A stretch of DNA of 64,000 nucleotides, taken from NCBI RefSeq assembly GCF_029589055.1, contig NZ_JARQZP010000003.1, positions 1,240,001 through 1,304,000 of the forward strand, read 5' to 3'. The translations under genes were made by a program, and so were the position numbers. The notes beneath the pieces are model-generated. The model was not told where the DNA came from and did not search any database. It saw only the letters and a list, made by a program, of their open reading frames with translations. Each line of letters opens with the position of its first letter. Positions within the stretch are counted from its first letter, which is position 1. This stretch comes from Vibrio hannami (GTDB lineage Bacteria; Pseudomonadota; Gammaproteobacteria; Enterobacterales; Vibrionaceae). This document shows positions 1,260-59,444 of this stretch, one piece after another.

Positions 1260-2210
1260 CTAACCAGTAGCTTTTTCTCTGGTCCCCACTACGCAATGGA
1301 TACCTCGTTGATTAAAATACGAGGCTATTTCGTTTACATGCTCCTGAAACACAGCCCTGTCGAACTCTAATTCCCGTATCTTGTATTCAAGCCCTAAAGA
1401 TTCATATTTTTCCTCTCCAAGCCGCATAAAGCTAAGAAGCTGAAGGGTTCTGACTCTCCCGGACATCTCGTTGAGAATAAAATCCGCTGTTGCTTCGATG
1501 TTCTCAAAGTCATCATTGACTGAAGGGATAACAGGGATTCTTACTATCAACTCTTTGTCAGTCTGAGAGAGCTTCTTCAGGTTGTTTAATATTTTATGGT
1601 TATCTACCCCTGTGTACTTTTTGTGTCTCTTACTATCCATGAGTTTGATGTCAGAGATAAACAAATCGGTATAGGGAATCAAGGACTCTAATTTGTTCCA
1701 GTTAGAATAGAAACTGGACTCAAGGCATGTGTGAACCCCTTCCCTATTACACTCTTTGAATAGTTCTATAACAAACTCGCTCTGCAAAAGTGGCTCTCCA
1801 CCCGATACAGTGACCCCACCGCCTGAGCGTTCATAAAAACCTCTATCCTGTAAGATAACCTTCATGCATTGCTCTACGGACATATGACTGCCCCACTGCT
1901 TTATTGCTTCAGAGGGGCATTCATCTGCGCAGTCACTGCAGTTTACACAAAGGTTACGATCAACTTTCACCAGTTTAGAGTCTGAAAAAATAAGCATCTT
2001 CGGATCATGGCACACTTCTTCGCACGAACCACATTTTTCGCTGGAGATACACTTATTATGATAAACACCAACTTCAATATGCCTGTTAAAGCTCTCCGGG
2101 TTACCACACCAGTCGCACCTTAAAGGACACCCTTTAAGGAAAAACTCAGTGCGGATACCCGGACCATCATGAAGCGTGAACCGCTGGACGTTTAGAACCG
2201 TTCCTGGCAC
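1260..2210 (-). CDS. Glycyl radical enzyme activating enzyme (radical SAM) partner of GRE1
   Basis: The 316-residue protein carries the radical-SAM CxxxCxxC cluster site as Cys28, Cys32 and Cys35 (GCPLRCDWC), then an inserted domain with cysteine groups typical of two 4Fe-4S ferredoxin clusters (about residues 54-100), and the SAM-binding GGEPLLQ motif. It should reduce S-adenosylmethionine and abstract hydrogen from the C-terminal glycine of its partner. The start is GTG at 2210 with a GAGGTAG ribosome site six bases upstream; only 12 bases separate it from the GRE1 stop, so the two are co-transcribed. The ferredoxin insert is shared with activases of dehydratase- and sulfolyase-type GREs and is absent from the short PflA. 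An HpsH, HpfH or IslB role is inferred from the neighbour. Confidence 0.88.
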   Translation of the reverse strand: MPGTVLNVQRFTLHDGPGIRTEFFLKGCPLRCDWCGNPESFNRHIEVGVYHNKCISSEKCGSCEEVCHDPKMLIFSDSKLVKVDRNLCVNCSDCADECPSEAIKQWGSHMSVEQCMKVILQDRGFYERSGGGVTVSGGEPLLQSEFVIELFKECNREGVHTCLESSFYSNWNKLESLIPYTDLFISDIKLMDSKRHKKYTGVDNHKILNNLKKLSQTDKELIVRIPVIPSVNDDFENIEATADFILNEMSGRVRTLQLLSFMRLGEEKYESLGLEYKIRELEFDRAVFQEHVNEIASYFNQRGIHCVVGTREKATG

Positions 2211-2222: not shown

Positions 2223-4754
2223 TTAAAATCTAAGTTCAGTTCGTTGGATAAGGTCGTCCTGCAACGGTTTACCCAGCTCGACAAAGTAAGCGCTGTATCC
2301 TGCTACACGCACCAGCATATCTCGATAGTTATCTGGATTTTTCTGTGCTGCGCGCATCTTCTCTGCACTCATAATATTGAACTGAACATGCATACCCTGC
2401 TTAGCGATATACTCGTCGACAAAGCTAACCAGAATATCCCTTCCTTCCACACCTGCAACCGCATCTTCCGGGAAGCGAAGGTTAAGCAGCGTCCCGTTTG
2501 TCGCAAGGCTGTGATCAACCTTAGTCACTGAGTTCACGATAGCGGTAGGACCATTGATATCGTGTGAACCGCCCTCTGTATGTACCGGTCCCATATTGTC
2601 AGAAATAGGTTCTTCGTTCTTACGACCGTCCAGAGATGCCCGGGTATACAGCCCCATACCAACATTGGCATTCACCGTATACACACCAGGGCTGAACTTA
2701 CCACCACGCGGGTTATCACGCCCTTTAATGTGGCGGCAATAACACTCAAACATAAAGTTAAATAGGTTATCCGCTTCATCATTATCGTTACCGTAATGGG
2801 GGATCTTGGAGCTGTTTACCAGTGCATACAACTTTTCATGGCCTTCCCAGTTATCTCTGACCGCATCCAGTAGCTCTTTACCAGTATACTTTTTATCTTC
2901 GAACATCAGCTTTTTAATGGTAGCCAGCGAGTCGGCACAGGTTGCGATACCCGCCGCCTGCGGCGCGGTTCCGTTATACTTCACGCCGCCATAAGTCATG
3001 TCCTTACCAGACTCTATACAACCTTCAAAAAACGCGGAAATATAAGGCGTTGGCTTAATCATCCGATGGATTTTATCTGTCACATTCAGGCAGCTACAAA
3101 GCTGGTCACACCAATATGCAAACTGCTTATCCACGCTTTCCAGCACTTCTTCAAACGTCTTGTAAGTTTCCAGGCTACCTGTATCAGGACCTAGCTGCAT
3201 GCCTGCATCAGGACCAGATAAAATTCGACCACCATTAATCACCATTTCCATCATCTTGGCGGTGTTCACATAACCCGCGTCTAGCCAGCCATGCTCTTTA
3301 CCCGGAATGGTAGGCTCAACACAACCAACAACGGCATAATCTCGCGCTTCTTTCAAAGTCACGCCTTTACCCTGCATCGCTTTGATAGCAGGGCCATCGT
3401 TGAACAGTTTCGGGTGACCATAACCTGCTCGAATACACTCAATGGTTTTGATCTTTAGTTCATATGGTGTGTTGTCGTGCATACGCACACATACCCACGG
3501 GTTCATCATGCGAGTGTGAACAGAGCCTTCCAACATCAACATGGTTAAATCATTGGTCGCATCATCACCATTTGCATCGACACCACCAATGGTAAGACTT
3601 TCGCCACCAAATCCACGACCATTACGCACTTTTACCGTGCCCTTATCTTTTAGCTTGGTCGGGTTGTTCATCTTCACATAAAGCACTTCAATCAGCTCAA
3701 GGATGAACTCTTTAGCAACGGCGTTCTTTTTTACGTCTTTCTCATAAAACGGATACAGCCACTGGTCCATACGTCCATAGGAAATGGAGTGACCGTTGCC
3801 TTCAATTTGAGTCATCGTAACTGCGAAATTAAATAACTGGACCGCCTGCCAGAATGACTGAGGAACGCCACCAGCTATTTGATAGCAGTTATCCGCCATA
3901 ATCTGAAGCTCTTGCTGGCGTTTAAGATCGGTTTCGCTCGCAGCCATCTCTTCAGCCAGTTTTGCGTAACGGGCAATATATTGCTTCGCAGCTTCCAGAG
4001 TGATAATGGTTGCTTTGTAATAATCTCGTTTGTCGCTGAAATCAGGATCCTGTTTAGACAATTTAGCAAATGCCGATTTTGCCTGATCCAGAACACCGTC
4101 ATATCCAAGCGTCATGAGTTTATTAAAGTCCATGGCGAAATGACCAATGCCAGCGAAGTGATAGTTATTGGTCTGGAACACCTTTTCCCCCATGTGAGAA
4201 CCTTTCTTCTGGTCTTCATCCAGGTGGGCGGTAATGATCTCGTTGGCGCTCTTACCTTTCCAGTACTCGCAAAGCTCCAGAATCTCAGCTCGGTCTTCAT
4301 CATTACGAATGTAGAACTGATCATTGGCACGCTCTTCAAACGGAGAGTTCAGTATTTCATCAATGATCCAGTCCACAGAGAATTCAGGATAGATAGGAGA
4401 AGCTTTCGCCGGAGCAGCAATCTCACCAAGAATTAAGTCATCCTGGTATATATGGAGAGTAGTGTTTAGCAGGATGTTCTCGAACGCATATGCGCACTGA
4501 AGAATTCGCGGCGTTGCTTCGTGCTTTTTATACGCCTGAGTCACAAGGCGCAATCTCTCTACATCGATATCGTAAGGTCGGCCAAGGAATGCCTGACGCA
4601 GTTTATTGACGCGTGGATACGGAGACCAGTCTTCATGACCAACCTCATACCCCAAACCATATACTTTATCAAAGTCATCTAAACCACGCGCAAGAGTATG
4701 AGAGTCTGCGCTTGTTTGTAGCAAACTCTCCTTATCCACCTGGAAGTTATCCAT
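2223..4754 (-). CDS. Glycyl radical enzyme GRE1; candidate sulfonate sulfite-lyase (HpsG/IslA-like) or DHPS dehydratase (HpfG-like)
   Basis: An 843-residue glycyl radical enzyme. Seen directly: thiyl motif GCVEP with Cys478 and general-base Glu480, and glycyl-radical motif RVAGYSAYF with Gly819. A single Cys-x-Glu instead of the Cys-Cys pair excludes pyruvate formate-lyase and places it with dehydratases, choline lyase and C-S lyases. Arg683 and Phe687 (RGGKF) have the spacing I recall for the sulfonate-contacting Arg678/Phe682 of isethionate lyase, which is weak evidence; I could not place an equivalent of Arg189 there. A TauE/SafE exporter is divergently transcribed, which favours a product such as sulfite or a sulfonate that must leave the cell. 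A promoter-region word shared with the sulfoquinovose cluster points to DHPS as substrate. The GRE identity is secure, the substrate inferred. Glycerol or another diol remains possible. Confidence 0.9.
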   Translation of the reverse strand: MDNFQVDKESLLQTSADSHTLARGLDDFDKVYGLGYEVGHEDWSPYPRVNKLRQAFLGRPYDIDVERLRLVTQAYKKHEATPRILQCAYAFENILLNTTLHIYQDDLILGEIAAPAKASPIYPEFSVDWIIDEILNSPFEERANDQFYIRNDEDRAEILELCEYWKGKSANEIITAHLDEDQKKGSHMGEKVFQTNNYHFAGIGHFAMDFNKLMTLGYDGVLDQAKSAFAKLSKQDPDFSDKRDYYKATIITLEAAKQYIARYAKLAEEMAASETDLKRQQELQIMADNCYQIAGGVPQSFWQAVQLFNFAVTMTQIEGNGHSISYGRMDQWLYPFYEKDVKKNAVAKEFILELIEVLYVKMNNPTKLKDKGTVKVRNGRGFGGESLTIGGVDANGDDATNDLTMLMLEGSVHTRMMNPWVCVRMHDNTPYELKIKTIECIRAGYGHPKLFNDGPAIKAMQGKGVTLKEARDYAVVGCVEPTIPGKEHGWLDAGYVNTAKMMEMVINGGRILSGPDAGMQLGPDTGSLETYKTFEEVLESVDKQFAYWCDQLCSCLNVTDKIHRMIKPTPYISAFFEGCIESGKDMTYGGVKYNGTAPQAAGIATCADSLATIKKLMFEDKKYTGKELLDAVRDNWEGHEKLYALVNSSKIPHYGNDNDEADNLFNFMFECYCRHIKGRDNPRGGKFSPGVYTVNANVGMGLYTRASLDGRKNEEPISDNMGPVHTEGGSHDINGPTAIVNSVTKVDHSLATNGTLLNLRFPEDAVAGVEGRDILVSFVDEYIAKQGMHVQFNIMSAEKMRAAQKNPDNYRDMLVRVAGYSAYFVELGKPLQDDLIQRTELRF

Positions 4755-4789
4755 TATCTACCTCATAAACTTAAAACTGAAAAATCATC

Positions 4790-4831
4790 AAAATGCCAAT
4801 GTTCATTCCGAAAAATGAACATTGGCATTTT
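4790..4831. repeat. Perfect 18-bp inverted repeat in the GRE1/exporter intergenic region
   Basis: Arms at 4790-4807 and 4814-4831 (beginning AAAATGCCAATG) are exact reverse complements around a six-base loop, CCGAAA. It lies 36 bp upstream of the GRE1 start, so a GRE1 transcript beginning further upstream would carry a strong hairpin in its leader. It could instead be a dimeric regulator operator or, read on the plus strand, a roadblock. There is no long T-tract, so a simple terminator is less likely. Confidence 0.85.
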
Positions 4832-4940
4832 GACCAGTTACCACTTTTAGCCAGCTAACCAAAAGTATTAGGTAATGAAGCCATTATACGGAGTGGCTCG
4901 TCTTCTTCTGAGAAAATAATCACAAATACGAAAACAAAAA

Positions 4941-4964
4941 TACAAAAAACAACACAATGTGACA
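4941..4964. promoter_or_regulatory. Candidate operator shared with the sulfoquinovose cluster (site C)
   Basis: The word CAACACAATGTGACA (4950-4964) matches CAACAAAATGTGACA (51563-51577, yihV-yihU promoter) at 14 of 15 positions, and both are preceded by an A-rich ACAAAA stretch. It lies about 70 bp upstream of the exporter start and within the GRE1 divergent promoter region. The TGTGA part could also be half of a CRP site. Confidence 0.4.
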
Positions 4965-5033
4965 TATGTAATGGTTATTTAATTTAATAGGATTATAGTG
5001 TCACTAAATTTCAATCGCTCAAAAACAGGACAC

Positions 5034-5774
5034 ATGGATACCACCATTATTTTTGTCTCGCTGATCATCGCATTGGCTGGTTTTACTCAGGGTCTGACCG
5101 GATTTGGTTCTGCTCTGGTATCGGTACCGCTTCTTTCACTAATAGTCGGCGCTCAAACTGCAGTGCCAATTGCTGGTATCTTCGGCTGGCTGGTGACTCT
5201 GCCGATTGCCTGGAAGATGCGTCACTCTATTCAGCGACAAACGGGACTTATCCTGTTTGCAGGCTCGGTTCCGGCATCTTTTGTGGGAGCGAAATTGCTT
5301 GCGACCATGCCGTCGCAGTACATTCTGCTTACGATGGGATTAGTACTGATTATATCTAGCTTGCACTCGTTCCGGGCGACCAAACCTGTTTTCCAGAAAA
5401 CCTCTATTCCTGTAACGATTGGCGCGGGTTTTACATCAGGCGTTTTGGGGGCGAGCGTTGGTGAGTCGGGTCCACCAGTAATTGCATACACATCTATGCA
5501 GCCCTGGACAGCAGACCAGGTTAAATCGACTCTAACTTTCTTCTTTATGCTTCAGATGATTGGTGCAAACATCAGCTTCTGGAATGAAGGGCTAATCACC
5601 GATGAAGTAATATCCCATGTCATTTCTGCTTTGCCTGCATTTGCAATTGGCCTGGCAGGAGGAATGGTTGGCTATCACTACCTTCAAAAGTACAACATCA
5701 ACTACCACAAGATCGTACATAGCTTCCTGCTGTTTATTGGCTGTGCCCTGGTGTTTAAAAACCTTCACTTCTGA
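5034..5774 (+). CDS. TauE/SafE family exporter (sulfite/sulfonate efflux type)
   Basis: The 246-residue inner-membrane protein has the family hallmark GFTQGLTGFGSALVSVPLLS near the N-terminus, the mirrored second-half motif GFTSGVLGASVGESGPPVIAY, and about eight hydrophobic segments. TauE/SafE permeases export sulfite, sulfoacetate and related anions during organosulfonate degradation. I chose ATG 5034 (AGGA four bases upstream) over the upstream GTG at 4998 because it begins directly before the first membrane segment. Divergent from GRE1 over 279 bp containing an 18-bp palindrome and candidate operator. Context suggests export of sulfite released by C-S cleavage, or of 3-hydroxypropanesulfonate if GRE1 is a dehydratase. 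Confidence 0.82.
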   Translation: MDTTIIFVSLIIALAGFTQGLTGFGSALVSVPLLSLIVGAQTAVPIAGIFGWLVTLPIAWKMRHSIQRQTGLILFAGSVPASFVGAKLLATMPSQYILLTMGLVLIISSLHSFRATKPVFQKTSIPVTIGAGFTSGVLGASVGESGPPVIAYTSMQPWTADQVKSTLTFFFMLQMIGANISFWNEGLITDEVISHVISALPAFAIGLAGGMVGYHYLQKYNINYHKIVHSFLLFIGCALVFKNLHF

Positions 5775-8681: not shown

Positions 8682-9422
8682 TTAACCCAATATAACTTCT
8701 ACGCCCTGCGCTTTCAGATACTCTATATCTTCCGTAGGAGCCGAGTTATCCGTTAACAGAATAGAAATCTCGTTGGTTTGTCCAATACTAGATGGATAGA
8801 TCTGACCAAACTTACTGGAATCGGTAAGAACGATATTACGTCGCTTCTTAGCCAGAATAGTTTCCGCAATCTCCGCCCGCATCATATCCCTGCTGGTAAA
8901 TCCGGTATCTTGCTGGAAACCATCGATTCCGAGAAACGCAGTGCTAAAGTGAATATTCTGAATACAAAGCTTTGTCAGAGGACCAACAAGACTTTCTCCC
9001 TGGTGTTGATAAACACCACCAAGAAGAATGATATTGGCATTAGAGTTTCGGATAAGGTGTGCGATATAAGCTGAAGGCGTAATGATGGTTACATCACCTC
9101 TATCGGCTAATGTTCTCGCAAGTAGAGCATTGGCACTGCCACCCTCGATTAAAACCGTTTCATTTGGTGCCACCAAATCCGCCGCTTTAGTTGCCAGCGC
9201 CTGCTTTACATCGAACCGAACTTCCAGGCGAGAATCAATATCATCGCTCTGTAGCGCAACTGCAGCGCCATGCACTCTTTTCAGGTAACCTTGTTGCTCC
9301 AGAAAGTTCAGATCCTGCCGAATGGTAACGCCTGAGACTCCAATGGTCTCGACAAGCTCCGTCACCTGAACTCGTTTCCTTTCATTCACCAGTTGCAGAA
9401 TTTCATTTTGTCTTGAGTTCAC
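8682..9422 (-). CDS. yciT: DeoR-family transcriptional regulator, YciT-like
   Basis: A 246-residue DeoR/GlpR regulator with an N-terminal winged helix (MNSRQNEILQLVNERKRVQV, recognition region VSGVTIRQDLNFLE) and a C-terminal sugar-phosphate-sensing domain (VLIEGGSANALLA, ITPSAYIAHL, LGGVYQ, FLGIDG, VLTDSSKFG). Extended similarity to remembered E. coli YciT, including SRQ-ILQ, SNALLARTL and RDMMR, supports orthology. DeoR proteins usually repress sugar catabolic genes and are relieved by a phosphorylated intermediate. Being 232 bp downstream of the GRE2 gene on the same strand makes it a candidate regulator of the anhydrosugar locus, although a repeat element separates them. Confidence 0.85.
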   Translation of the reverse strand: MNSRQNEILQLVNERKRVQVTELVETIGVSGVTIRQDLNFLEQQGYLKRVHGAAVALQSDDIDSRLEVRFDVKQALATKAADLVAPNETVLIEGGSANALLARTLADRGDVTIITPSAYIAHLIRNSNANIILLGGVYQHQGESLVGPLTKLCIQNIHFSTAFLGIDGFQQDTGFTSRDMMRAEIAETILAKKRRNIVLTDSSKFGQIYPSSIGQTNEISILLTDNSAPTEDIEYLKAQGVEVILG

Positions 9423-9481
9423 AGTGCTACTCCAAAAACTAAAAAGAGGCTACTATTGTAACCTCACACTTATACCCCACA

Positions 9482-9567
9482 CCGTCATTCCACTAGCCGT
9501 GCGCTCACGAAAGCGGGAATCTAAATAAATCAAGACGCTAGATCCCTGCCTACGCTGGGATGACGGG
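9482..9567. repeat. Intergenic imperfect palindrome (CGTCATTCC-type repeat)
   Basis: Ends CCGTCATTCC (9482) and GGGATGACGG (to 9566) are imperfect inverted repeats, with an internal GAAAGCGGGAATCTA and a TAGATCCCTGCC segment. This is the layout of the dispersed CGTCATTCC...GGAATGACG repeats of many gammaproteobacteria. It lies in the 232-bp gap between the GRE2 and YciT-like genes and could fold on the transcript. Confidence 0.6.
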
Positions 9568-9654
9568 TAGTATCAATAAACTGAAGCTACTATTGTAACC
9601 CCTATAACTTTCATATGAAACCGATATGAAATATAAATATTAAGTCAGACGATT

Positions 9655-49786: not shown

Positions 49787-50545
49787 TTATTTGCAAATTT
49801 CGACTTTAACACTGCCGGTATTCAGAACATCCTGAATATCTTCTGGTGGTTGCTCGTCGGTGAAGAACACCGTCGCATCCTTAATATTACCCAGTTCGAT
49901 AGAACCTTTAGGCGTGTATTTGGTTGAGTCCAGAGCCACAAATACATTCCTTGCGGACTTCATTACAGCCTGAGCAATGGCTGTTTCGTTAAGATCATAC
50001 TCAAGCAATGTTCCATCTTCATCAATAGAGCCTGCACTAGTAATCATGTAATCGAAACGGAAGTTATTAATAAAATCAAGAGCCTCAGTACCGACAATTC
50101 CGCCATTCTTCGCTCTGATTTTTCCGCTTGGGATCAACACATCAAAGCTTTTATTGCTATGCAGTACATTTGCAACCCGAAGCGAGTTGGTGATCACCTG
50201 CAAATTGCTTTTCTTAAGAAGATGCGTTGCTATGATTTCTGTTGTTGTGCCTATCGTCAGGAACACGGTTGAGTTATCGGGAATCATCTGAGTAATGCGT
50301 TCACCGATAGCATTCTTTTCTTCAGTTTCTGAGACTTTACGAATTTCGTAATCAAGGTTAACTGTACTGGAAGGAGAACTTGCACCACCGTGGTGACGCA
50401 CTAACAAGCGCTCGTCGCTGAGTTTCTTGATATCTCTTCTGATCGTTTGTGTCGAAACTTGCAGAATTTCTGCAAGTTCTTCGACGGTACAGTAACCTTT
50501 ATCAATAACTAATTGTAATAGTTTGTCTTGTCTTGGATTAGTCAT
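49787..50545 (-). CDS. csqR: DeoR-family repressor of sulfoquinovose catabolism (CsqR/YihW-like)
   Basis: A 252-residue DeoR regulator: winged helix NPRQDKLLQLVIDKGYCTVEELAEILQVSTQTIRRDIKKLS and effector domain (FLTIGTTTEIIATHLL, VITNSLRVANVLHSN, IVGTEA). Sequence follows remembered E. coli CsqR (YihW). CsqR represses SQ genes until it binds SQ, its glyceryl form or a pathway intermediate. It lies 24 bp downstream of yihV on the same strand, so it is co-transcribed and autoregulated. Candidate operators are at 51535-51577 and elsewhere in the cluster. Confidence 0.87.
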   Translation of the reverse strand: MTNPRQDKLLQLVIDKGYCTVEELAEILQVSTQTIRRDIKKLSDERLLVRHHGGASSPSSTVNLDYEIRKVSETEEKNAIGERITQMIPDNSTVFLTIGTTTEIIATHLLKKSNLQVITNSLRVANVLHSNKSFDVLIPSGKIRAKNGGIVGTEALDFINNFRFDYMITSAGSIDEDGTLLEYDLNETAIAQAVMKSARNVFVALDSTKYTPKGSIELGNIKDATVFFTDEQPPEDIQDVLNTGSVKVEICK

Positions 50546-50569: not shown

Positions 50570-51457
50570 TTAATCTGCAATATCTGCTTCAACCGTTGCA
50601 CGGTCAGGAATGCCTTCGCGGCCACCTCTTCGGGTGCATTTTATCGCTGCTACTGTATTTGAAAATATAACTGCCTGACGGGTTTCCATTCCTTCAGCGA
50701 CCGCAACAGCAAGTGCTCCATGGAAAACATCACCAGCACCTGTAGTATCCACCACATCAACAACTTTACCCGGCTGATGCATCAGTTCGTCGTCTTCTAA
50801 CCAGTAGCAACCCTTTGCGCCGACAGTAACATATACTTTCCCTTTTGTCCTTTTCTGAGCGATTTTTAGACCTTCAATTGGATCATCTGTCGCACTAAAT
50901 TTAGCCAGACCAGGTTCTGAGAATGCAATATGATCGGAAAGTTCTACAAGCTCATCAATAGGATCCGGACAAATATCGGCATCCAGTACAGAAGGAATAC
51001 CGAATTTTTTCGCCTGTTCAAGCGCGTATTTGGCACCTTCTATCCATCGTACATCACATAAAATGGTTTCGTATGTAGAGAAATCAACAGATTTAAGAGG
51101 TTCAATATCTCGGCTTAGAGACTTGTCCTGGTAGTTGATGATCATGCGCTCACCTTCATCATCCACCAGCACCGCAGAGAAAGCCGATGACGCTTCAGAT
51201 ATATGAACAGCATTGTCTACACCAACACCGTATCCAGATAACTCAGACAACATAGTGTCTGCCACAGAATCACCACCAACACGTCCGATAAAATCAACAT
51301 CCTTTCCGAGTCTAGCCACAGCAACTGAAGCCGTTGCCGCTGGCCCACCGCCAACTTCAAAATAGTCGGTTGCAACAAACTTGCCGCCGGTAGTAGGTAG
51401 TTGAGCGACTCGCTGGATTCTGTCGAGTACGGTAATTCCAAGACACGCTATTGCCAT
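50570..51457 (-). CDS. yihV: 6-deoxy-6-sulfofructose kinase (YihV-like)
   Basis: A 295-residue PfkB-family kinase. VGGGPAATASVAVARLG is near the N-terminus, the catalytic GAGD is at residues 240-243 (Asp243), and the C-terminus has KCTRRGGREGIPD. It closely follows remembered E. coli YihV throughout. It phosphorylates sulfofructose at C1 with ATP. It is divergent from yihU over 199 bp carrying repeated candidate operators. Confidence 0.93.
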   Translation of the reverse strand: MAIACLGITVLDRIQRVAQLPTTGGKFVATDYFEVGGGPAATASVAVARLGKDVDFIGRVGGDSVADTMLSELSGYGVGVDNAVHISEASSAFSAVLVDDEGERMIINYQDKSLSRDIEPLKSVDFSTYETILCDVRWIEGAKYALEQAKKFGIPSVLDADICPDPIDELVELSDHIAFSEPGLAKFSATDDPIEGLKIAQKRTKGKVYVTVGAKGCYWLEDDELMHQPGKVVDVVDTTGAGDVFHGALAVAVAEGMETRQAVIFSNTVAAIKCTRRGGREGIPDRATVEADIAD

Positions 51458-51534: not shown

Positions 51535-51577
51535 CACAAAACAACACCAAATGTACACAAAACAACAAAATGTGACA
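51535..51577. promoter_or_regulatory. Two 21-bp-spaced operator-like repeats between yihV and yihU
   Basis: CACAAAACAACACCAAATGT begins at 51535 (site A) and CACAAAACAACAAAATGTGA at 51556 (site B). The starts are 21 bp apart, two turns of the helix. Repeated A-rich ACAAAACAACA words fit a DeoR-family operator. Site B also contains a CRP half-site-like TGTGA. Confidence 0.55.
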
Positions 51578-51656: not shown

Positions 51657-52550
51657 ATGTCAACTATCGGCTTTATCGGTCTTGGACAAATGGGCAGCCC
51701 AATGGCGGCAAACCTTATCAAAGGCGGAAACTCTCTTAAGGTCTTCGATATTAACGAAGAAGCTGTATCTAAGCTTGTTGAGCAAGGCGCAACTGCCGCT
51801 ATATCTCCAGCTGAAGCTGCAAACGACGTTGAGTTCATCGTTACTATGCTTCCAAATGGCGCACTAGTTCGTGCAACTCTGTTTGGCGAAAACGGCATTA
51901 CAACAACAATGAGTAAAGATGCTCTTCATATCGACATGTCGACTATTCATCCAATGGAAACAGATGCTCTAGTTAAAGAGATGGCTGATGCTGGATTCCA
52001 GATGATGGAAGCACCGGTTGGTCGTACTTCAGACCACGCTATTCGTGGTGAACTTCTAATCATGGCAGGTGGTACTAAAGAGCAGATTGAAAAAGCTCAA
52101 CCTCTGTTTGATTGCATGGGTAACGAAACGGTTGATTGCGGCGGTCAGGGTAAAGGCATTCGCGTAAAAATCATCAACAACTACATGAGTATCGCACTTA
52201 ATGCGCTGTCTGCTGAAGCCGCAACACTTGCTGAAGCAATTGGCCTGGAGTTCGATGCTGCTCTGAAAGTAATGAATGGTACGCCTGCTGGTAAAGGACA
52301 CTTCACTACAACATGGCCAGGAAAAGTACTGGCTGGCAACCTTGATCCTGCATTTATGATCGACCTTGCACATAAAGACCTGGGTATCGCCCTTGACCTT
52401 GCAAACCAGGTTAACGTTCCAATGCCTTGTGGCGCCGCATCTCGTGAGATGTACAGCATTGCACGCGCAGCAGGTCGTGGTCGTCAGGACTGGACGGCGG
52501 TACTAGAGCAACTTCGTGTAACCTCTGGTCTTGAACCTAAAATTAAATAA
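51657..52550 (+). CDS. yihU: Sulfolactaldehyde reductase (YihU-like)
   Basis: A 297-residue member of the beta-hydroxyacid dehydrogenase family: [17 protein letters not shown]-binding start, MLPNGALVR, the substrate loop [11 protein letters not shown] (Arg123), and catalytic Lys171 in [10 protein letters not shown]. It aligns with remembered E. coli YihU almost from end to end, so it reduces 3-sulfolactaldehyde to DHPS with NADH. RBS AAGAAGGATTAATTC precedes the ATG. First gene of the rightward SQ units. Confidence 0.94.
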
Positions 52551-52576: not shown

Positions 52577-53638
52577 GTGAAACTCACTACTACCCCATGG
52601 GGCGAAGTAGAAGGTCAGAACACACCAGTCCAGCTATTTACGCTGGAAAACCAGAGTGGAATGAAGCTTTCGGTCACCAACTATGGCTGCATAGTGACGT
52701 CGATTGAAACACCAGACCGCAACTGTGAACTTGCTGATGTCGTTCTGGGCTACGAAAGCCTGGAAAAATACTTAGTCGGACACCCTTTCTTTGGTGCGAT
52801 TGCTGGTCGCTATGCAAACCGCATCAAAGATGGCAAATACAGTCTCGATGGCATCAATTACCAACTTGAAACCAATGAGCCCCCAACGACTCAACATTTG
52901 CATGGCGGTACAAAAGGGTTCGACAAGTATGTCTGGAACTACTCGGTAGAAGAAACCGAAACGGGTATCTTCATTCATTTTAACCGAGTATCTCCAGATG
53001 GAGAATCTGGTTATGGCGGTACACTAAACGTTGTTCATACGATTGGTTTGGATGAATCGAATCAGGTTCATTACAACTTTAAAGCCACCACTGACAAGCC
53101 AACCGTTTTGAACCTATGCAACCACAGTTACTACAACCTTGGTGGCCATGATTCTGGCTCTGTTGAAGGCCATGAACTGAAGCTGTTTGCTGATTTCTAC
53201 ACGCCAGTCGCAGAGAACATGATTCCTACTGGTGAAATCCTTTCCGTAAACGGGACTGGACTGGATTTCACCGCTTCTTCTGTTATTGGTGAAAACAAAC
53301 AAAAGCTTGAAGAAGATGGTTTCGACCATAACTACATACTCCATCACCGCGATGTAGAGGATGATTATGGTTACGCAGCAGAACTGTACGATCCTAAAAC
53401 GGGACGCTTTATGACGGTACTAACCACTCAGCCTGCGGTTCAGTTCTACAGCGGTTTTAAGCTATCCAACAAACCGTGGTTTGGTCGTAATGGCTTTAAG
53501 TACGAATCCTGGGGTGGAATGTGCCTGGAAACCCAGCACTTCCCAGACAGTCCAAACCAGTCTCACTTCCCTTCTGTTCGTCTGAATCCAGGCGAAGTAT
53601 TCGAAGAGAAGACCATACACAGGTTTGGAGTGAAGTAA
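52577..53638 (+). CDS. GalM-type aldose 1-epimerase of the SQ operon
   Basis: A 353-residue galactose-mutarotase-like enzyme: RYANRIKDGKYSLDG, QHLHGG, NLCNHSYYNLGG (catalytic His), FDHNYIL, and the catalytic-Glu segment CLETQHFPDSPN. It is the size of GalM (346) rather than E. coli YihR (308), so it is a paralogous replacement for YihR. It would interconvert SQ anomers for the isomerase. It starts 26 bp after yihU and is followed by a terminator. Confidence 0.88.
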   Translation: MKLTTTPWGEVEGQNTPVQLFTLENQSGMKLSVTNYGCIVTSIETPDRNCELADVVLGYESLEKYLVGHPFFGAIAGRYANRIKDGKYSLDGINYQLETNEPPTTQHLHGGTKGFDKYVWNYSVEETETGIFIHFNRVSPDGESGYGGTLNVVHTIGLDESNQVHYNFKATTDKPTVLNLCNHSYYNLGGHDSGSVEGHELKLFADFYTPVAENMIPTGEILSVNGTGLDFTASSVIGENKQKLEEDGFDHNYILHHRDVEDDYGYAAELYDPKTGRFMTVLTTQPAVQFYSGFKLSNKPWFGRNGFKYESWGGMCLETQHFPDSPNQSHFPSVRLNPGEVFEEKTIHRFGVK

Positions 53639-53843: not shown

Positions 53844-55094
53844 ATGAAGTGGATTAATACCCGATCCCATATTTCTTGGTTAGAAACCGAAACAGACCGC
53901 ATCTTCGAATTTGGCAGAAACGCTGTTGTACCTAATGGCTTTGGCTGGATTGGTAACAACGGTAATGTTCGTGAAGAGATGGGTACACGCCTTTGGATCA
54001 CAGCAAGAATGCTACATTGTTACTCTCTGGCTGCGTTGATGGGTCGCCCTGGAGCAATGGACCTGGTTGAGCATGGTATCACTGCTCTTGAAGGCCCACT
54101 AAAAGACAAAGAGCACGGCGGTTGGTTCGCTACTATAGATAATGAAGGCGAAGGCATCATGGATGAGTCTAAACAAGGCTACCAGCATGCATTCGCACTG
54201 CTAGGCGCAGCAAGTGCTGTTACTACTGGTCACCCTCGCGCACAAGCTCTTCTGGAAGAAGCTATCGCTGTTTATGAGAAACACTTCTGGGTTGAAGAGA
54301 AGCAGATGTGTTACGAGTCATGGGATCGTGCCTGGACTGAAACAGAAGATTACCGCGGTGGTAATATGGCAATGCACTCTGTGGAAGCATTCCTGATTGT
54401 TTATGATGTAACTAAAGACAAAAAGTGGCTTGACCGCGCACTGAACATTACTGAATTCATGGTTCACAAGACAGCAAAAGGCCTGAGCTATCGTGTAAAT
54501 GAGCACTTCGATTCAGACTGGAATCCACTACCAGACTACAATAAAGAGACACCAGCAAGTCACTTCCGTGCATACGGCGGTACACCTGGTCACTGGATTG
54601 AGTGGGGTCGTTTGATCTGTCACCTACGTGCAACGCTCCTAGAAATTGGCGCTGATGCACCTGAGTGGATGCTAGAAGATGCCATTGGTCTATTCGATGC
54701 AACGGTACGTGACGCATGGTATGTAGATGGCGCACCTGGTTTTGTTTACTCGGTTGACTGGGACGGTAAACCTGTTGTTCGTGAACGTATTCGTTGGGCT
54801 CCAGTAGAAGCTATCGGTACTGCTTATGCGCTTTACGCTGTAACTGGTGAGAAAAAGTACGAAGACTGGTACCAGACATGGTGGGATTACTGTCGTACTT
54901 ACCTGATCGACTATGAAGGTTGCTCATGGTGGCAGGAACTAGACGTAAACAACCAGGCTGGTACAAGCGTGGTTTGGGACGGTAAGCAGGATATCTATCA
55001 CCTAATGCACTGCCTGGTGATTCCTCGCCTTCCTCTGACTCCGGGTCTGGCACCGGCTGTTGCTGCAGGTCTTCTGGATCAGGATGTGAAGTAA
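53844..55094 (+). CDS. yihS: Sulfoquinovose isomerase (YihS-like)
   Basis: A 416-residue N-acylglucosamine-2-epimerase-family isomerase (E. coli YihS 413). It begins [30 protein letters not shown] and holds [38 protein letters not shown] and [24 protein letters not shown], which supply the active-site His and other residues. It follows remembered YihS residue by residue and converts SQ to sulfofructose. RBS AGAGGAAACAATGT precedes the ATG. The gene has its own promoter module. Confidence 0.94.
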
Positions 55095-55356: not shown

Positions 55357-55444
55357 TGTCCATTTATGGTAGTTTTTGTAATTAATGATACATAACTAAC
55401 AGAAATAATCTTACTCTATTGGTAATTTCTACAGTAACAAACAA
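55357..55444 (+). promoter_or_regulatory. Promoter/leader module of the SQ aldolase (copy 2)
   Basis: TGTCC at 55357, the 23-bp block at 55386-55408 and AACAAACAA at 55436-55444 repeat the yihS module with equal spacing (45 of 59 positions identical from the block onward). It suggests that both genes are controlled together. Confidence 0.55.
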
Positions 55445-55463
55445 ATCAAGAGGAATACTCAAA

Positions 55464-56324
55464 ATGCCTTACATGTCCGGTAAAACTATGATCAAAGAAG
55501 CGTGGGATAACAGCTACGCTATCGGTGCATTCACTGCTCACAACCTGGAAACTATCAAAGCTGTACTTCTTGCAGCGCAGGAAGAGCAATCCCCAATCAT
55601 GATTCAGATCGGTCAGAAAGCTATCAACGAAATGGGCATGAAGCCTCTACGTGACGCCGTTGATTCTCTTATTCAACACCATGAAATCACAGTACCTATC
55701 TGTATTCACCTTGACCACAGCCGTAAATTTGAGCAGTGCATGGAAGCGGCAACTCGCGACTTCCAATCTCTGATGTTTGATGGTTCTGCGCTTCCGTTTG
55801 AAGACAACATCCGCATCACGAAAGCCGTTGTTGAAGTAGCAAACGCTCTAGGTTTAGGTGCTGAAGGTGAAATCGGCAAGATCGGTGGTACAGAAGATGA
55901 CATCACCGTTGATGAAAAAGATGCAATGGTCACTACTGTTGAAGAAGCTCTGGATTTCTCTGAGCGTACAGGTGTTGATTATTTAGCTGTTTCTATCGGT
56001 ACCGCTCACGGTGTATACAAAACAACACCAGAACTGAAGTTCGATCGTTTATCTGAAATCAAAGAAGCCGTTAAGAAGCCTATCGTGCTACACGGTGGTT
56101 CAGGTGTGCCAGACGACCAGGTTGTAGAAGCAGTTAAGCGCGGTGTAGCTAAGATCAACGTTGATACAGAGCTACGTCAGGGCTTTATTGCAGGTGTTAA
56201 AGCGTACTGGGAAGCAAATCCTGAAGATGTAATTTTGGCGGATGCAAACAACTCTGGTATCGCTTCAATGATGGAAGTTGTTAAACACAAAATTCGTCTA
56301 TTTGGTTCAAACGGCAAAGCTTAA
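55464..56324 (+). CDS. Class II aldolase, candidate 6-deoxy-6-sulfofructose-1-phosphate aldolase
   Basis: A 286-residue class II (zinc) aldolase of the GatY/KbaY/FbaA type, replacing the class I YihT of E. coli. Metal/active-site motifs: ICIHLDHSRKFEQC, GAEGEIGKIGGTEDD, VDYLAVSIGTAHGVY, VLHGGSGVPDD and the phosphate loop KINVDTELR. It should split sulfofructose-1-phosphate to DHAP and sulfolactaldehyde. A class II enzyme performing this step has been reported in a variant sulfo-EMP pathway. ATG 55464, with AGAGGA nine bases upstream, is used; the longer start at 55419 lacks support. A tagatose/fructose-bisphosphate role cannot be excluded by sequence alone. Confidence 0.88.
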   Translation: MPYMSGKTMIKEAWDNSYAIGAFTAHNLETIKAVLLAAQEEQSPIMIQIGQKAINEMGMKPLRDAVDSLIQHHEITVPICIHLDHSRKFEQCMEAATRDFQSLMFDGSALPFEDNIRITKAVVEVANALGLGAEGEIGKIGGTEDDITVDEKDAMVTTVEEALDFSERTGVDYLAVSIGTAHGVYKTTPELKFDRLSEIKEAVKKPIVLHGGSGVPDDQVVEAVKRGVAKINVDTELRQGFIAGVKAYWEANPEDVILADANNSGIASMMEVVKHKIRLFGSNGKA

Positions 56325-56370: not shown

Positions 56371-56481
56371 CTGCTGTGAATAGGTTCAAAGAACCAATTG
56401 TGTAACTAGGTTATCAATAGCACTTAGTGAACAATGTGTTGTTTAAACAACTATACAGATAATAATTATTTTGGTGATTCT

Positions 56482-57018
56482 ATGCTGAAAGCAATAGAAA
56501 GAGCATTAAACACAGTCAATGCGCCAATCGCTCGCTGGACGGCCAATATAGCTGGTTTCTTCCTGCTGGTTATGACAGTGATCGTCATCGTCCAGGTAGC
56601 ATTCAGATACCTTCTGAATACACCACTTGGCTGGACAGATGAATCGTCGCGCTTTTTGATGATCTACATGACCTACCTGTGCCTACCGATCATTTATCTT
56701 GATGATAAAAACATCGCAATGACCTTCGTGACAGACAAGCTAAAAGGCACTCGCGTATTTGAGCTGCTGATGGTAGTCGCACACATTGCAAGTCTACTTC
56801 TGTTTGCAGTTTGGATTTATTTTGGTTACGCATTCTACCAAACTGGCTCAGTGATGGCAGATAGCCTGCCTATTCCAATGTACACGATATATGCAGTACC
56901 TCCGGTGATGCTTGCGATTTCTTGTTCGTTTGCGCTGCAAAAACTGGCTGGTGCGCTGCACAAGCTTATCTATTTTAATGAAGAGCAGAAGAAAGTAGCT
57001 GCTCAAGCGGCAGAGTAG
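56482..57018 (+). CDS. TRAP transporter small membrane subunit (DctQ-like)
   Basis: A 178-residue protein with four membrane segments and the DctQ pattern: FFLLVMTVIVIVQVAFRYLLNTPLGWTDESSRFLMIYMTYL, then YLDDKNIAMTFV. ATG 56482, with GGTGATTC upstream, is used rather than the upstream start. It scaffolds the large subunit. Two or so bases after its stop begins the DctM ribosome site, so the pair is coupled. Confidence 0.9.
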   Translation: MLKAIERALNTVNAPIARWTANIAGFFLLVMTVIVIVQVAFRYLLNTPLGWTDESSRFLMIYMTYLCLPIIYLDDKNIAMTFVTDKLKGTRVFELLMVVAHIASLLLFAVWIYFGYAFYQTGSVMADSLPIPMYTIYAVPPVMLAISCSFALQKLAGALHKLIYFNEEQKKVAAQAAE

Positions 57019-57028
57019 AGGTCTTATC

Positions 57029-58321
57029 ATGGTTTCTCCTATTTTCGTTCTCTACTTTATGGCATTCCTGCTTATTGGTGTGCCTGTACTATTCGCTCTG
57101 GGTCTGGCTCCGATCATTACCTTCTTCCAGAACGATCAGGTACTGTTCATTAACATGCTTTACCAGCGCCTTTACTCTGGTTTGGATAACTTCCTTCTTC
57201 TCGCGCTGCCATTCTTTATGCTGGCAGGTGAATGTATGTCGAGTGGTGGTATCACACCTCGAATCATCGCATTTGCTCAGGCTCGCGTTCAGCACCTAAG
57301 CGGTGGTCTGGGACACGTTGTAATCCTGACTTCGACTCTGTTTGGTGCCCTTACAGGTTCAGCGGTAGCAGCGACATCAGCAATCGGTAACATGTTGTTA
57401 CCAGAGATGAAGAAGTTTAAGTACGACACAAGTTACTCAGCGGCACTAACCGCGGCAGCAACTATCATTGGTAATATCATTCCACCATCAGGTCTGATGC
57501 TGCTGTACGCATTTGTAATGAACACCTCGGTTGCAGCAATGTTTATCGCGGGTATTGTACCGGGTCTTATCTTCTGTCTTGGCCTCATGCTTGTTAACCG
57601 CGTACAGATTCGTAAATACCCTGATGTGCAAACGTTGCCACGAGCGAGCAAGTTGGATCGTCGTGAAAGCCTTAAGCTTGCGATTCTGCCACTGCTTACG
57701 CCAGTTATCATTCTTGGTGGTATCTACGGCGGTATCTTTACTCCAACAGAAGCAGCTGCGGTTGCGGTGGCATACGCTATCTTCCTGTCGGTTTACGTAA
57801 TCAAAGTAACAGACCTGAAAGCAACTTACGTATTGTTTACTAAGGTAGCAGTGAACGCAGCAGCGGTATTGATCATCGTAGCGGCGGCAAGTGGATTTGC
57901 TTCGGCAATCAGCTTCTCTGGTATCTCAAACATGGTGACTGAGTTCTTCAACGGAATTACTCGTGATCCATTGATGCTGTTCTTCATCATCAACGTGTTC
58001 TTGTTCATTGTTGGCATGTTCTTAGATGCAGGTCCTGCGATTCTTATCTTCGCACCTATCATCGCGCCAATCATGATCAATGCGGGCGTCGACCCAGTGC
58101 ACTTTGGTGTGGTGATGTGTATCAACCTGTCAATTGGTCTGGCAACCCCACCGATGGGACTGGTGCTGTTCGTAGCGTCGGGCGTATCGGGTCAGCCATT
58201 GCAGAAGATTTCGAAGGCGATTATTCCATTCATTATCGTGGAGTTCCTAATCATCTTCCTAATTTCGTTCTTCCCTGATCTAGTTATCGGCCTACCGAAA
58301 CTGTTAGGCGTGATGCAGTAA
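57029..58321 (+). CDS. TRAP transporter large permease subunit (DctM-like)
   Basis: A 430-residue permease with about twelve segments and DctM motifs: LPFFMLAGECMSSGGITPRIIAFA, FGALTGSAVAATSAIGNMLLPEMKKFKYDTSYSAALTAAATIIGNIIPPSGLMLLYAF, GGIYGGIFTPTEAAAVAVAYA, MCINLSIGLATPPMGLVLF. It drives sodium- or proton-coupled uptake. In this cluster it replaces the YihO/YihP transporters of E. coli, so it likely takes up SQ or sulfoquinovosyl glycerol. RBS AGAGG lies before the ATG. Confidence 0.93.
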   Translation: MVSPIFVLYFMAFLLIGVPVLFALGLAPIITFFQNDQVLFINMLYQRLYSGLDNFLLLALPFFMLAGECMSSGGITPRIIAFAQARVQHLSGGLGHVVILTSTLFGALTGSAVAATSAIGNMLLPEMKKFKYDTSYSAALTAAATIIGNIIPPSGLMLLYAFVMNTSVAAMFIAGIVPGLIFCLGLMLVNRVQIRKYPDVQTLPRASKLDRRESLKLAILPLLTPVIILGGIYGGIFTPTEAAAVAVAYAIFLSVYVIKVTDLKATYVLFTKVAVNAAAVLIIVAAASGFASAISFSGISNMVTEFFNGITRDPLMLFFIINVFLFIVGMFLDAGPAILIFAPIIAPIMINAGVDPVHFGVVMCINLSIGLATPPMGLVLFVASGVSGQPLQKISKAIIPFIIVEFLIIFLISFFPDLVIGLPKLLGVMQ

Positions 58322-58325
58322 CTAT

Positions 58326-58365
58326 TACAAAACAGTTTGTGAAACTACAAAACAAATCGTGAAAC
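58326..58365 (+). repeat. Adjacent tandem 20-bp repeats before dctP
   Basis: Two abutting 20-bp copies (58326-58345 and 58346-58365) begin TACAAAACA and end GTGAAAC, with 17 of 20 positions alike. They start just after the dctM stop, about 30 bp before dctP. They resemble the ACAAAACA operator words of the yihV-yihU region and could regulate, or stabilise the RNA for, dctP. Confidence 0.65.
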
Positions 58366-58394
58366 ATAAAGCAAAATACTATAAGGAACATAAC

Positions 58395-59444
58395 ATGAAA
58401 AAATCACTACTGGCACTTGCAACTACAGCCCTATTTGCAACATCAGCAGCCAACGCGGCGGATTACAAGCTGACTGTGCCACACGTGTCAAACCTGGAAA
58501 GCTACAACCACCAGTCATTGTTAGTGTTTAAGAACTATGTTGAGTCTCGTTCTAACGGTGCTATCGAAGTTGATATTTACCCATCAGGTCAGCTATGTAG
58601 CAACGCTAAAGAGTGTATCGCTGGGGTACAGGCAGGTATGTTTGACTACTTCCAGACGACTATCCCTGAGCTAGCTAACTTCTGGAAACCAGTAGGTGCG
58701 TTTGACCTTCCATACATGCTGCCAAACGACCGTGTTGCTGAGTGTGTTTACGACAACGAAGAGTTCTTAGGTGACGTTCGTGGCGAACTTATCAAGCGCG
58801 CTCCAAACGTACGTCTGATGATGGTATCTAACTCTGGTGGCTGGCGTAACATCGCGACTACTAAGAAGCAGGTAATGTCTCCAGATGATGTTAAAGGTCT
58901 GAAACTACGTACAGTACCAGCTAAGATCCAGCAAGAACTTGTTAAAGAACTTGGCGGTTCACCAACTCCTATCGCATGGCCAGAAGTTTACACAGCACTT
59001 TCCACAGGCGTAGTAGATGGTACTAAGAACGGCATCGTTGATATCGTACAGAACAAATTCCACGAGAGCCTAAATTACCTAATCCTTGATGGTCACGCAT
59101 ACATGGGTGGTGCTTGGGTATTCAACGACATGAAGTTCAAGTCTATGCCAAACGAGCTGAAGCAAGTACTTGTTGACGGTATCGATGCTCAGAACCAGTA
59201 CCTACGTGCATATCCTAAGCACCGTGAGTTCTCTGCTTACGAAGAGTTCCGCAAAGCTGACGGTACAATCTACAACCCAACAGCAGAAGAAAAAGCGAAG
59301 TTCCAGGCTAAAACTGCTCCGGTTAAAGATTATTTCCTAAGCACAGCTGGTGACGAAGGTAAAGCATGGCTTGAGCGTTTCCAAAACGAAATCAAGACAT
59401 GTGAAACTAAGATTGCTGCTGATTACTCAGTACAGTTCAAGTAA
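58395..59444 (+). CDS. TRAP transporter substrate-binding protein (DctP-like)
   Basis: A 349-residue periplasmic protein with a Sec signal (MKKSLLALATTALFATSAANA) and DctP features: YNHQSLLVFKNYVESRSNGAIEVDIYPSGQL, GLKLRTVPAKIQQELVKELGGSPTPIAWPEVYTALSTGVVDG. The conserved Arg in KLRTVP binds an acid group in characterised members; here it may bind the sulfonate. ATG 58395, AAGGAAC upstream. High-expression codon bias fits a TRAP binding protein. Ligand inferred from context. Confidence 0.92.
   Translation: MKKSLLALATTALFATSAANAADYKLTVPHVSNLESYNHQSLLVFKNYVESRSNGAIEVDIYPSGQLCSNAKECIAGVQAGMFDYFQTTIPELANFWKPVGAFDLPYMLPNDRVAECVYDNEEFLGDVRGELIKRAPNVRLMMVSNSGGWRNIATTKKQVMSPDDVKGLKLRTVPAKIQQELVKELGGSPTPIAWPEVYTALSTGVVDGTKNGIVDIVQNKFHESLNYLILDGHAYMGGAWVFNDMKFKSMPNELKQVLVDGIDAQNQYLRAYPKHREFSAYEEFRKADGTIYNPTAEEKAKFQAKTAPVKDYFLSTAGDEGKAWLERFQNEIKTCETKIAADYSVQFK

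Follow-up and report, generated by a model that had tools for sequence, protein, structure and literature searches.

An HpfG-type glycyl radical enzyme of Vibrio hannami is predicted to belong to the SQ regulon

The glycyl radical enzyme (GRE) HpfG dehydrates DHPS ((2S)-3-sulfopropanediol) to 3-sulfopropionaldehyde (3-SPA) with the sulfonate retained, as described in the available text of one report (PMC11489063). The closest described system, HpfGHDE, is known from HpfGH of Klebsiella oxytoca and HpfD of Hungatella hathewayi (PMC12890257 and PMC11489063, available text of each). The sulfite-lyase HpsG of Bilophila is also a GRE that acts on DHPS, but it cleaves the C-S bond. Two organisms are reported to combine conversion of sulfoquinovose (SQ), a sulfosugar of plants, to DHPS with HpfG: Vibrio scophthalmi, in which HpfG and HpfD are part of a sulfo-EMP cluster according to the available part of a review (PMC9594981), and Enterococcus gilvus, which has sulfo-TAL together with HpfGHDE and HpfXYZ. 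Vibrio mediterranei AbY-1905 has a hybrid sulfo-EMP pathway with a SqiA-type aldolase and, grown in shaken flasks, converts SQ to DHPS at near-stoichiometric yield; the main text of that paper, in the portion available, makes no mention of hpf or glycyl (PMC13372026). Another V. mediterranei isolate has hpfG (L016).

The locus described here lies in a 64,000-nucleotide stretch of the V. hannami genome (the window; contig NZ_JARQZP010000003.1, positions 1,240,001 to 1,304,000). It has in common with HpfGHDE an orthologous dehydratase and activase and, we predict, the substrate DHPS. In contrast to HpfGHDE, the V. hannami genome has no HpfD orthologue, its TauE-family permease is only 24% identical to Hungatella HpfE (eight further TauE-family proteins of the genome lie outside that comparison), and its hpfG carries an element of the SQ regulon. 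As in V. scophthalmi and E. gilvus, one organism would take SQ to DHPS and then on through HpfG, and the SQ cluster resembles that of AbY-1905 in its SqiA-type aldolase and in its expected end product, DHPS. However, V. scophthalmi and E. gilvus are reported with HpfD, whereas V. hannami has an orthologue of neither HpfD nor HpfY, and its hpfG is 47 kb from yihU. The coupling of SQ catabolism to HpfG in Vibrio is already in print (PMC9594981, available part) and the enzyme is known; what is new is the variant of the gene set. The literature searched, as far as its text was available, contains no description of an hpfG variant without HpfD or of the shared 23-bp element described below.

An initial annotation of the window had noted a GRE (GRE1), its activase and a divergent TauE/SafE gene, and all three open reading frames are in place, the activase just outside the range that had been singled out. 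GRE1 (2223..4754, minus strand; 843 aa) matches the NCBIfam HpfG equivalog NF048009 over profile positions 1-824 of 824 with 1639.7 bits (cut-off 1000), and it is 75% identical to HpfG of Klebsiella spallanzanii and 71% identical to HpfG of Hungatella hathewayi. The gene for an hpfH-type radical SAM activase (1260..2210, minus strand; 316 aa; NF048008, 584.3 bits, cut-off 500) starts 12 bp past the GRE1 stop and encodes, by eye, the sequence CPLRCDWC and two ferredoxin-type Cys clusters, in agreement with the ferredoxin-type pairing that had been proposed. The catalytic motif had also been read correctly as a single Cys478-x-Glu480, with Cys478 as the thiyl residue; the radical glycine is Gly819. 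GRE1 cannot be classed as a pyruvate formate-lyase (116.4 bits for TIGR01255, cut-off 994.2), and the models for CutC (503.6 bits, cut-off 1050) and HypD (536.2 bits, cut-off 1100) likewise set those identities aside. Family placement, the check that had been suggested, puts GRE1 with HpfG, not with CutC by model, nor closest to glycerol dehydratase.

The relatives used were the best 80 of 94, which correspond to 78 loci; two loci with no GRE longer than 750 aa were omitted from the tree and alignment. Among the 77 aligned HpfGs from these best 80 of 94 relatives, Cys478, Glu480, Gly819, His205, His322 and Ser323 are invariant, and Asp492 is kept in 76. In a quick tree, the TauE-linked group that includes GRE1 (16 rows) forms one side of a branch with an SH-aLRT value of 93 and neighbours Vibrionaceae HpfGs with adjacent HpfE-HpfD. 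Loci were labelled type A when they contain a TauE orthologue, and the presence of TauE in 15 of 15 type-A loci follows from that definition. Label B was given to 41 rows, including L059, whose sole HpfD match has 25% identity and should not count. GRE1, a radical enzyme sensitive to oxygen, is most likely an HpfG-type DHPS dehydratase. It scores as HpfG and far below the membership level of HpsG (NF048011, 490.7 bits, cut-off 1000), and therefore the C-S bond of DHPS is predicted to stay intact. Of the two DHPS-directed activities raised at the outset, the HpfG option thus stands and the HpsG option falls. The associated proposals of sulfite release and of carbon recovery from all six SQ carbons lose their support, since the HpfG family, in the available text of PMC11489063, makes 3-SPA and keeps the sulfonate.

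The SQ cluster noted earlier in the window is indeed there, at 49787-61632. It begins with a CsqR/YihW-like DeoR-family regulator (49787..50545, minus strand; NF008154, 240.4 bits, under the cut-off of 331), named from its score and its place beside yihV in the SQ clusters inspected, and a YihV-like sulfofructose kinase (50570..51457, minus strand), for which the ribokinase-family models score below cut-off and which is named by cluster position. On the plus strand follow YihU, the sulfolactaldehyde reductase that would make DHPS (51657..52550; NF012005, 494.9 bits, cut-off 348), a YihR-like mutarotase (52577..53638; NF008277, 274 bits, cut-off 240), a YihS-like SQ isomerase (53844..55094; GlcNAc 2-epimerase family PF07221, 406.7 bits) and a SqiA-like class II aldolase (55419..56324; TIGR00167, 281.4 bits, cut-off 215.6). 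Next come dctQ-, dctM- and dctP-like genes for a TRAP transporter proposed to take up SQ or SQGro (56434..59444, plus strand; dctM TIGR00786, 381.5 bits; dctP NF037995, 166.1 bits), the small dctQ-like subunit having no model match. The yihQ sulfoquinovosidase gene (59630..61632, plus strand) is interrupted: the 775.5-bit match to NF007746 runs to position 539 in a profile of 683, the frame breaks near 61.2 kb, and what remains of the profile is matched in another frame. No second yihQ was found above the NF007746 cut-off in the genome. By family or cluster place, the sulfo-EMP set (hybrid EMP/EMP2: isomerase, kinase, aldolase, SLA reductase and YihQ) is complete, with yihQ interrupted, a break that counts against the scheme proposed below.

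One link between hpfG and the SQ genes is a 23-bp operator-like element. One copy is in the tauE/hpfG intergenic region (4942..4964, minus strand; 38.1 bits) and another in the divergent yihV/yihU intergenic region (51555..51577, minus strand; 34.9 bits), whereas the third-ranked match in the window reaches only 11.9 bits, all with a matrix from which the window was left out. With the reverse matrix, built from hpfG-less genomes only, the best match in the window is at yihV/yihU (28.4 bits) and the second at hpfG (28.2 bits), so that these are the two best matches in both directions. When the window was resampled ten times by a Markov model, the top score was 16.8 bits. At a threshold of at least 21 bits, the element is present at hpfG in 18 of 19 type-A genomes of the genus, including six of the seven outside the training set, and at yihU in 25 of 26 genomes. 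The weakest score at an hpfG promoter is 21.0 bits (G037), and a 23.8-bit match lies within the hpfG coding sequence of another genome (G138, locus L119), so the threshold does not separate promoter sites from other matches without exception. The one type-A genome without the element at hpfG is G104, in which hpfG sits after gldA. Neither of the two type-B genomes with upstream DNA has the element at hpfG; in the third, G117, the contig begins inside hpfG. The genes hpfG and yihU are on separate contigs in two two-contig assemblies (G022 and G103) and three drafts (G016, G167 and G084), and all ten hpfG and yihU promoters of these genomes have the element.

An alignment of 16 intergenic regions revealed further features of the hpfG promoter. 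A CRP-like site, TGTGA-N6-TCTCA (4909..4924, minus strand), is centred 28 bp upstream of a -10-like hexamer, TATAAT (4883..4888, minus strand). TGTGA-N6-TCNCA occurs without mismatch in 14 of the 16 promoters, although the pattern was picked after viewing the alignment, and TATAAT is at equal distance from the CRP-like site in 15 of 16. No FNR box with at most one mismatch was found in the 16 promoters. The hpfG gene apparently shares its genetic switch with the SQ genes. We suspect that the CsqR-like regulator is probably what binds the 23-bp element, an assumption made from gene order; we found no published CsqR motif in the literature searched, as far as its text was available.

The distribution of hpfG tells a similar story. 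Among 196 genomes of the genus, 19 have hpfG of the GRE1 type (type A), and yihU is found in all 19 compared with 7 of the 177 others (Fisher 5.5e-21, uncorrected for kinship, the related genomes not being independent). HpfD is absent from all 19 type-A genomes and present in all three type-B genomes. From its sequence associations, then, hpfG has a connection with the SQ pathway of its own genome, as the initial annotation proposed, and a stronger one than it proposed.

The TauE/SafE-family permease gene (5034..5774, plus strand; PF01925, 84.2 bits, cut-off 32.6) is divergent from hpfG. The listed start is a GTG at 4998, but a conserved ATG at 5034 gives a protein of 246 aa, the same as in many relatives, and orthologs were sought with the sequence from the codon directly after this ATG. 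TauE accompanies yihU in 25 of 25 genomes, six of which lack hpfG, and in those six its gene is inside or beside the SQ cluster. It had been viewed as an exporter serving GRE1, for which we find no support. Because it tracks yihU rather than hpfG, TauE probably exports a C3 sulfonate (DHPS, perhaps 3-hydroxypropanesulfonate, 3-HPS) rather than sulfite, as a member of the SQ regulon.

We consider it very probable that GRE1 and its activase are an HpfGH pair recruited into the SQ regulon that would give 3-SPA and then 3-HPS under anoxia. In this scheme, the anoxic SQ pathway would yield DHPS via YihU, HpfH would install the glycine radical on HpfG, and HpfG would dehydrate DHPS to 3-SPA with the C-S bond kept. 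An NADH-dependent reductase would convert 3-SPA to 3-HPS, so that NADH could be reoxidised a second time for each SQ, and the TauE-family permease would export C3 sulfonates. Transcription of hpfG would be switched with the SQ genes through the 23-bp element (probably by CsqR, relieved by SQ), which the CRP-like site in front of hpfG accompanies. The sequences themselves show the family membership, the common 23-bp element, the co-occurrence with yihU and the lack of an HpfD orthologue; the reaction, its product, the role of CsqR and the cargo of TauE are predictions.

No HpfD orthologue was found in the V. hannami genome with the Hungatella protein as query, nor in type-A genomes with the Vibrio thalassae protein, searched in 22 genomes; the two queries are 75% identical. 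HpfD being absent, 3-SPA may go to another enzyme, or another product may form. The likeliest enzyme appears to be YihU itself, a choice to which we give a little less than even confidence. YihU is favoured because 3-SPA is its normal substrate minus the 2-hydroxyl and is also the sulfonate analogue of succinic semialdehyde. The title of a 2009 paper by Saito gives E. coli YihU as a hydroxybutyrate dehydrogenase that acts in the metabolism of succinic semialdehyde. YihU of type-A genomes differs from that of six hpfG-less genomes by a single fixed difference, I22L, and so gives no sign of adaptation. We propose that YihU and TauE together replaced HpfD and HpfE.

It is quite conceivable, if short of probable, that a generic aldehyde reductase or the iron-dependent alcohol dehydrogenase (Fe-ADH) at 14057-15256 reduces 3-SPA instead of YihU. 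That Fe-ADH is closer to HpfD than any other protein of the genome (38-40% identity), the genome has further Fe-ADHs, and an engineering paper, in its available text, lists YihU among reductases inferior to YqhD for gamma-hydroxybutyrate. However, the Fe-ADH scores as an L-threonine dehydrogenase equivalog (639.1 bits, cut-off 581) and its gene is grouped with those of a second GRE (GRE2) and an FSA-type aldolase, so that we assign it to GRE2 rather than take it for HpfD. The 15 type-A loci among the best 80 of 94 relatives yielded no iron-dependent ADH resembling it or HpfD, and the PF00465 gene near hpfG in three of them (L056, L083 and L014) is GldA by model. Oxidation of 3-SPA to 3-sulfopropionate with a gain of ATP, as in E. 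gilvus, is improbable. The genome has 19 aldehyde dehydrogenase matches, some of them pieces of one gene, but none is an HpfY orthologue (best match 35%), and HpfX, HpfY and HpfZ were not found in the same 15 loci from the best 80 of 94 relatives.

We think it very unlikely that GRE1 is a glycerol or propanediol dehydratase, perhaps acting on glycerol freed from SQ-glycerol. Its nearest solved sequence is a B12-independent glycerol dehydratase (624 bits by phmmer; IslA, 344 bits), and glycerol dehydratase and IslA were set aside by this phmmer ranking only, no model with a cut-off having been seen; gldA and dhaK are also near hpfG in L014, L056, L083 and G104. Against this are the HpfG equivalog score and the identity to the Klebsiella and Hungatella enzymes. 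In addition, gldA-dhaK occurs in hpfG-less SQ clusters (L166, L167 and L169) and is therefore no marker of the GRE substrate, and the lack of an ADH like that of the window or HpfD in the 15 type-A loci means that there is no 1,3-propanediol-type partner there. That GRE1 is instead an HpsG-like lyase giving sulfite and hydroxyacetone, with TauE exporting the sulfite, fits a DHPS-acting GRE family, the SQ genes and the TauE/SafE neighbour but is extremely unlikely, given an HpsG score under half its cut-off, TauE retained in six SQ-gene genomes without an hpfG match, and conservation of the residues aligned (numbered by counting) with glycerol dehydratase His164, His281, Ser282 and Asp447, which we take to speak for dehydration.

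If GRE1 is an HpfG, SQ-derived DHPS could take up electrons in the absence of oxygen rather than be degraded with release of sulfite. From the promoter element common to both gene sets follows a specific prediction that can be tested, and the absence of HpfD raises the question of which enzyme carries out the second reduction. We think it conceivable, at somewhat less than even odds, that in a marine gammaproteobacterial clade the SQ regulon captured HpfGH and dropped HpfD and HpfE, with YihU acting twice, on sulfolactaldehyde to give DHPS and on 3-SPA to give 3-HPS, and TauE exporting the products. Because of this double role of YihU and export through TauE, a fermenter of SQ-glycerol could reoxidise the additional NADH that glycerol brings and would release a pool of 3-HPS. 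According to the available text of PMC11489063, 3-HPS is not degradable by Bilophila wadsworthia, whereas DHPS feeds H2S producers. If many marine Vibrio proceed to 3-HPS without oxygen, bulk sulfosugar would be diverted from DHPS, the feed of H2S producers.

The glycyl radical enzyme, activase and divergent TauE/SafE permease genes of the initial annotation were all found in the window. GRE1 (843 aa; 2223-4754, minus strand) matches the HpfG equivalog model over its full length (NCBIfam; 1639.7 bits, cut-off 1000), and its activase (1260-2210, minus strand) matches HpfH (NCBIfam; 584.3 bits, cut-off 500). GRE1 is, as annotated, not a pyruvate formate-lyase (116.4 bits, cut-off 994.2), and Cys478 and Glu480 were correctly identified. 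CutC (503.6 bits, cut-off 1050) and HypD (536.2 bits, cut-off 1100) were rejected as identities with NCBIfam models. In a PDB sequence search, the closest match was B12-independent glycerol dehydratase (624 bits); IslA gave 344 bits. A genome scan found 78 loci, from the best 80 of 94 relatives; among those 80, GRE1 is 75% identical to HpfG of Klebsiella spallanzanii and 71% to that of Hungatella hathewayi DSM 13479. Cys478, Glu480, Gly819, His205, His322 and Ser323 (GRE1 numbering) are invariant in 77/77 aligned HpfGs, and Asp492 is kept in 76/77. When aligned with glycerol dehydratase and numbered by counting, Cys478, Glu480 and Gly819 lie opposite Cys433, Glu435 and the radical Gly, and His205, His322, Ser323 and Asp492 lie opposite His164, His281, Ser282 and Asp447, whose roles in glycerol dehydratase we assume in this comparison. 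Judged by sequence, GRE1 looks like a diol dehydratase. Given these residues and the HpfG match, the C-S cleavage proposed earlier is not expected; the HpsG model scores 490.7 bits (NCBIfam), under its cut-off of 1000 and against 1639.7 for HpfG.

HpfG reportedly dehydrates (2S)-3-sulfopropanediol (DHPS) to 3-sulfopropionaldehyde (3-SPA), HpfD reduces and HpfE exports, and the pathway is an NADH sink (PMC11489063, accessible text). We defined two hpfG types in Vibrionaceae and their neighbors. In type A, a label set by the presence of TauE, hpfG-hpfH is joined by a tauE orthologue transcribed away from hpfG; this type comprises 15 named loci and the window. Within the flanks covered, the 15 loci show neither HpfD nor HpfE, and eight of them have sulfoquinovose (SQ) genes there (L010, L013, L014, L015, L020, L056, L083, L084). 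Type B, in Vibrio and Photobacterium, has the order hpfH-hpfG-hpfE-hpfD, as in Hungatella, whereas Klebsiella has the same genes in another order. Type-A tauE, hpfG and hpfH also occur in two genera that are not Vibrionaceae, Reinekea (L085) and Alginatibacterium (L015), which suggests lateral transfer. A quick tree sets the 16 type-A rows apart by a single branch (SH-aLRT 93); HpfD is present in every other member of the enclosing set (five Vibrionaceae, one Fusobacteriaceae).

The two types also separate by gene content. Among 196 genomes of the window's genus (a subset of a larger group; 12 match named Vibrio type-A loci in hpfG coordinates), 22 have hpfG: 19 are type A (85-100% identity) and three type B (81-82%). 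Of the 196, 26 carry yihU (E up to 1e-100): 19/19 type A, 0/3 type B and 7/174 without hpfG, so that 7/177 genomes other than type A have it (Fisher p 5.5e-21, kinship ignored). An HpfD orthologue (90-98% identity) is in all three type-B genomes (one copy, where a contig stops, spans 101 residues) and in 0/19 type-A genomes, where the best matches reach at most 41% identity.

hpfG and yihU share a 23-bp promoter element. TGTCACATTnTGTTGTTTTnTGT, or a closely similar sequence, lies between tauE and hpfG. A matrix built on the tauE/hpfG regions of 15 other genomes, the window excluded, scored 38.1 bits at 4942 (minus strand; tauE/hpfG), 34.9 at 51555 (minus strand; yihV/yihU) and then 11.9. A reverse matrix, from yihU promoters of six genomes without hpfG, ranked the same two sites first (28.4 bits at 51555 and 28.2 at 4942; then 15.1). 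Ten Markov resamples of the window gave maxima of 5.3-16.8 and, with the reverse matrix, 8.1-15.9. The element (at least 21 bits, a cut also passed by a 23.8-bit match within the coding part of hpfG in G138) precedes 18/19 type-A hpfG genes, 12 of these genomes being in the training set, and 6/7 outside that set. It is at 25/26 yihU genes (at least 25 bits); the miss, G065, has a YihU that is 57% identical. Of the three type-B genus genomes, one starts within hpfG; in the two that include upstream DNA the score does not exceed 2.2. Seven named type-B loci, one of which (L022) likewise starts within hpfG, reach at most 9.0. Both copies are kept where hpfG and yihU are on separate contigs (G022 and G103, two contigs each; drafts G016, G167 and G084). 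A simple reading is that HpfD and HpfE were probably lost when hpfG entered the SQ regulon.

In E. coli, SQ releases CsqR from the yihU/yihV region to which it binds (PMC12608037, in the part available), so a CsqR-type regulator would be a natural candidate, by analogy, to bind the element. A CRP-like site, a pattern chosen post hoc, is mismatch-free before hpfG in 14/16 promoters, and E. coli yih genes are also under CRP regulation (PMC5816610, portion consulted). Weaker element copies at 53717, 55357 and 56349 (yihR/yihS, yihS/sqiA and sqiA/dctQ gaps) score 6-9 bits, within the chance range in the window; in Vibrio maerlii, a copy in the yihR/yihS gap scores 21.1 bits (L010, 17788).

With no HpfD, another enzyme must reduce 3-SPA. 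We suspect that YihU would take this role in type-A genomes: its gene shares the element with hpfG and is present in all 19, its substrate and 3-SPA are one hydroxyl apart, and 3-SPA is the sulfonate analogue of succinic semialdehyde. E. coli YihU is reportedly named, in a paper's title, a hydroxybutyrate dehydrogenase in succinic semialdehyde metabolism. However, the YihU sequence shows no sign of adaptation between type-A and hpfG-less genomes, and for gamma-hydroxybutyrate YqhD was described as more effective in the text available. A search for an HpfY orthologue found none.

The permease gene (5034-5774 by its conserved start, plus strand) has orthologues (E up to 1e-60) in 25 genus genomes, 19 type A and six without hpfG, and all 25 have yihU. 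In the hpfG-less genomes, tauE either separates yihR from yihS within the SQ cluster (L165, L168, L170) or adjoins yihR (L166, L167, L169). G104, type A by identity, also has its tauE in the SQ cluster, at a distance from hpfG. TauE can therefore be assigned to the SQ pathway, which in Vibrio mediterranei ends in DHPS (PMC13372026, available portion). Tracking SQ genes, even in six genomes without hpfG, it gives no evidence of the proposed sulfite release.

The SQ cluster itself was confirmed at 49787-61632. Its yihQ (59630-61632) is in two reading frames, split near 61.2 kb by a real break or an assembly error; it is intact in relatives, and the genome has no second match over the model cut-off. 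Inverted repeats GTTCCCACGC...GCGTGGGAAC lie in intergenic regions of the cluster (55094-55419 and 59444-59630). A second locus (8682-15256) encodes a DeoR-type regulator, GRE2 (TIGR01774, 1128.7 bits), an activase, an FSA-type aldolase and a YiaY-like Fe-ADH. It is reminiscent of E. coli ybiY-ybiW-fsaA and of a radical glycolysis via 1-deoxyfructose 6-phosphate, on which no paper was found in the literature searched. The glycyl radical domain has eight matches in the genome; they include two pyruvate formate-lyases, a PflD-like enzyme and a GrcA-sized protein (128 aa).

Two papers already remark, on gene clusters, that SQ degradation is coupled to HpfG in Vibrio (PMC9594981, where HpfD is included, and PMC11489063). 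No mention of the HpfD-less hpfG type, of the element common to hpfG and yihU or of this assignment of TauE turned up in the literature searched. The metal-ADH gene near hpfG in Vibrio renipiscarius (L083) is GldA by model; HpfD calls from Pfam PF00465 alone thus deserve a second look. gldA and dihydroxyacetone kinase genes adjoin SQ or hpfG genes in seven loci (L014, L056, L083, L163, L166, L167, L169), and gldA immediately precedes hpfG-hpfH in G104. These neighbors suggest that the glycerol part of SQ-glycerol is used as well, and glycerol from this source may be a reason for the extra NADH sink.
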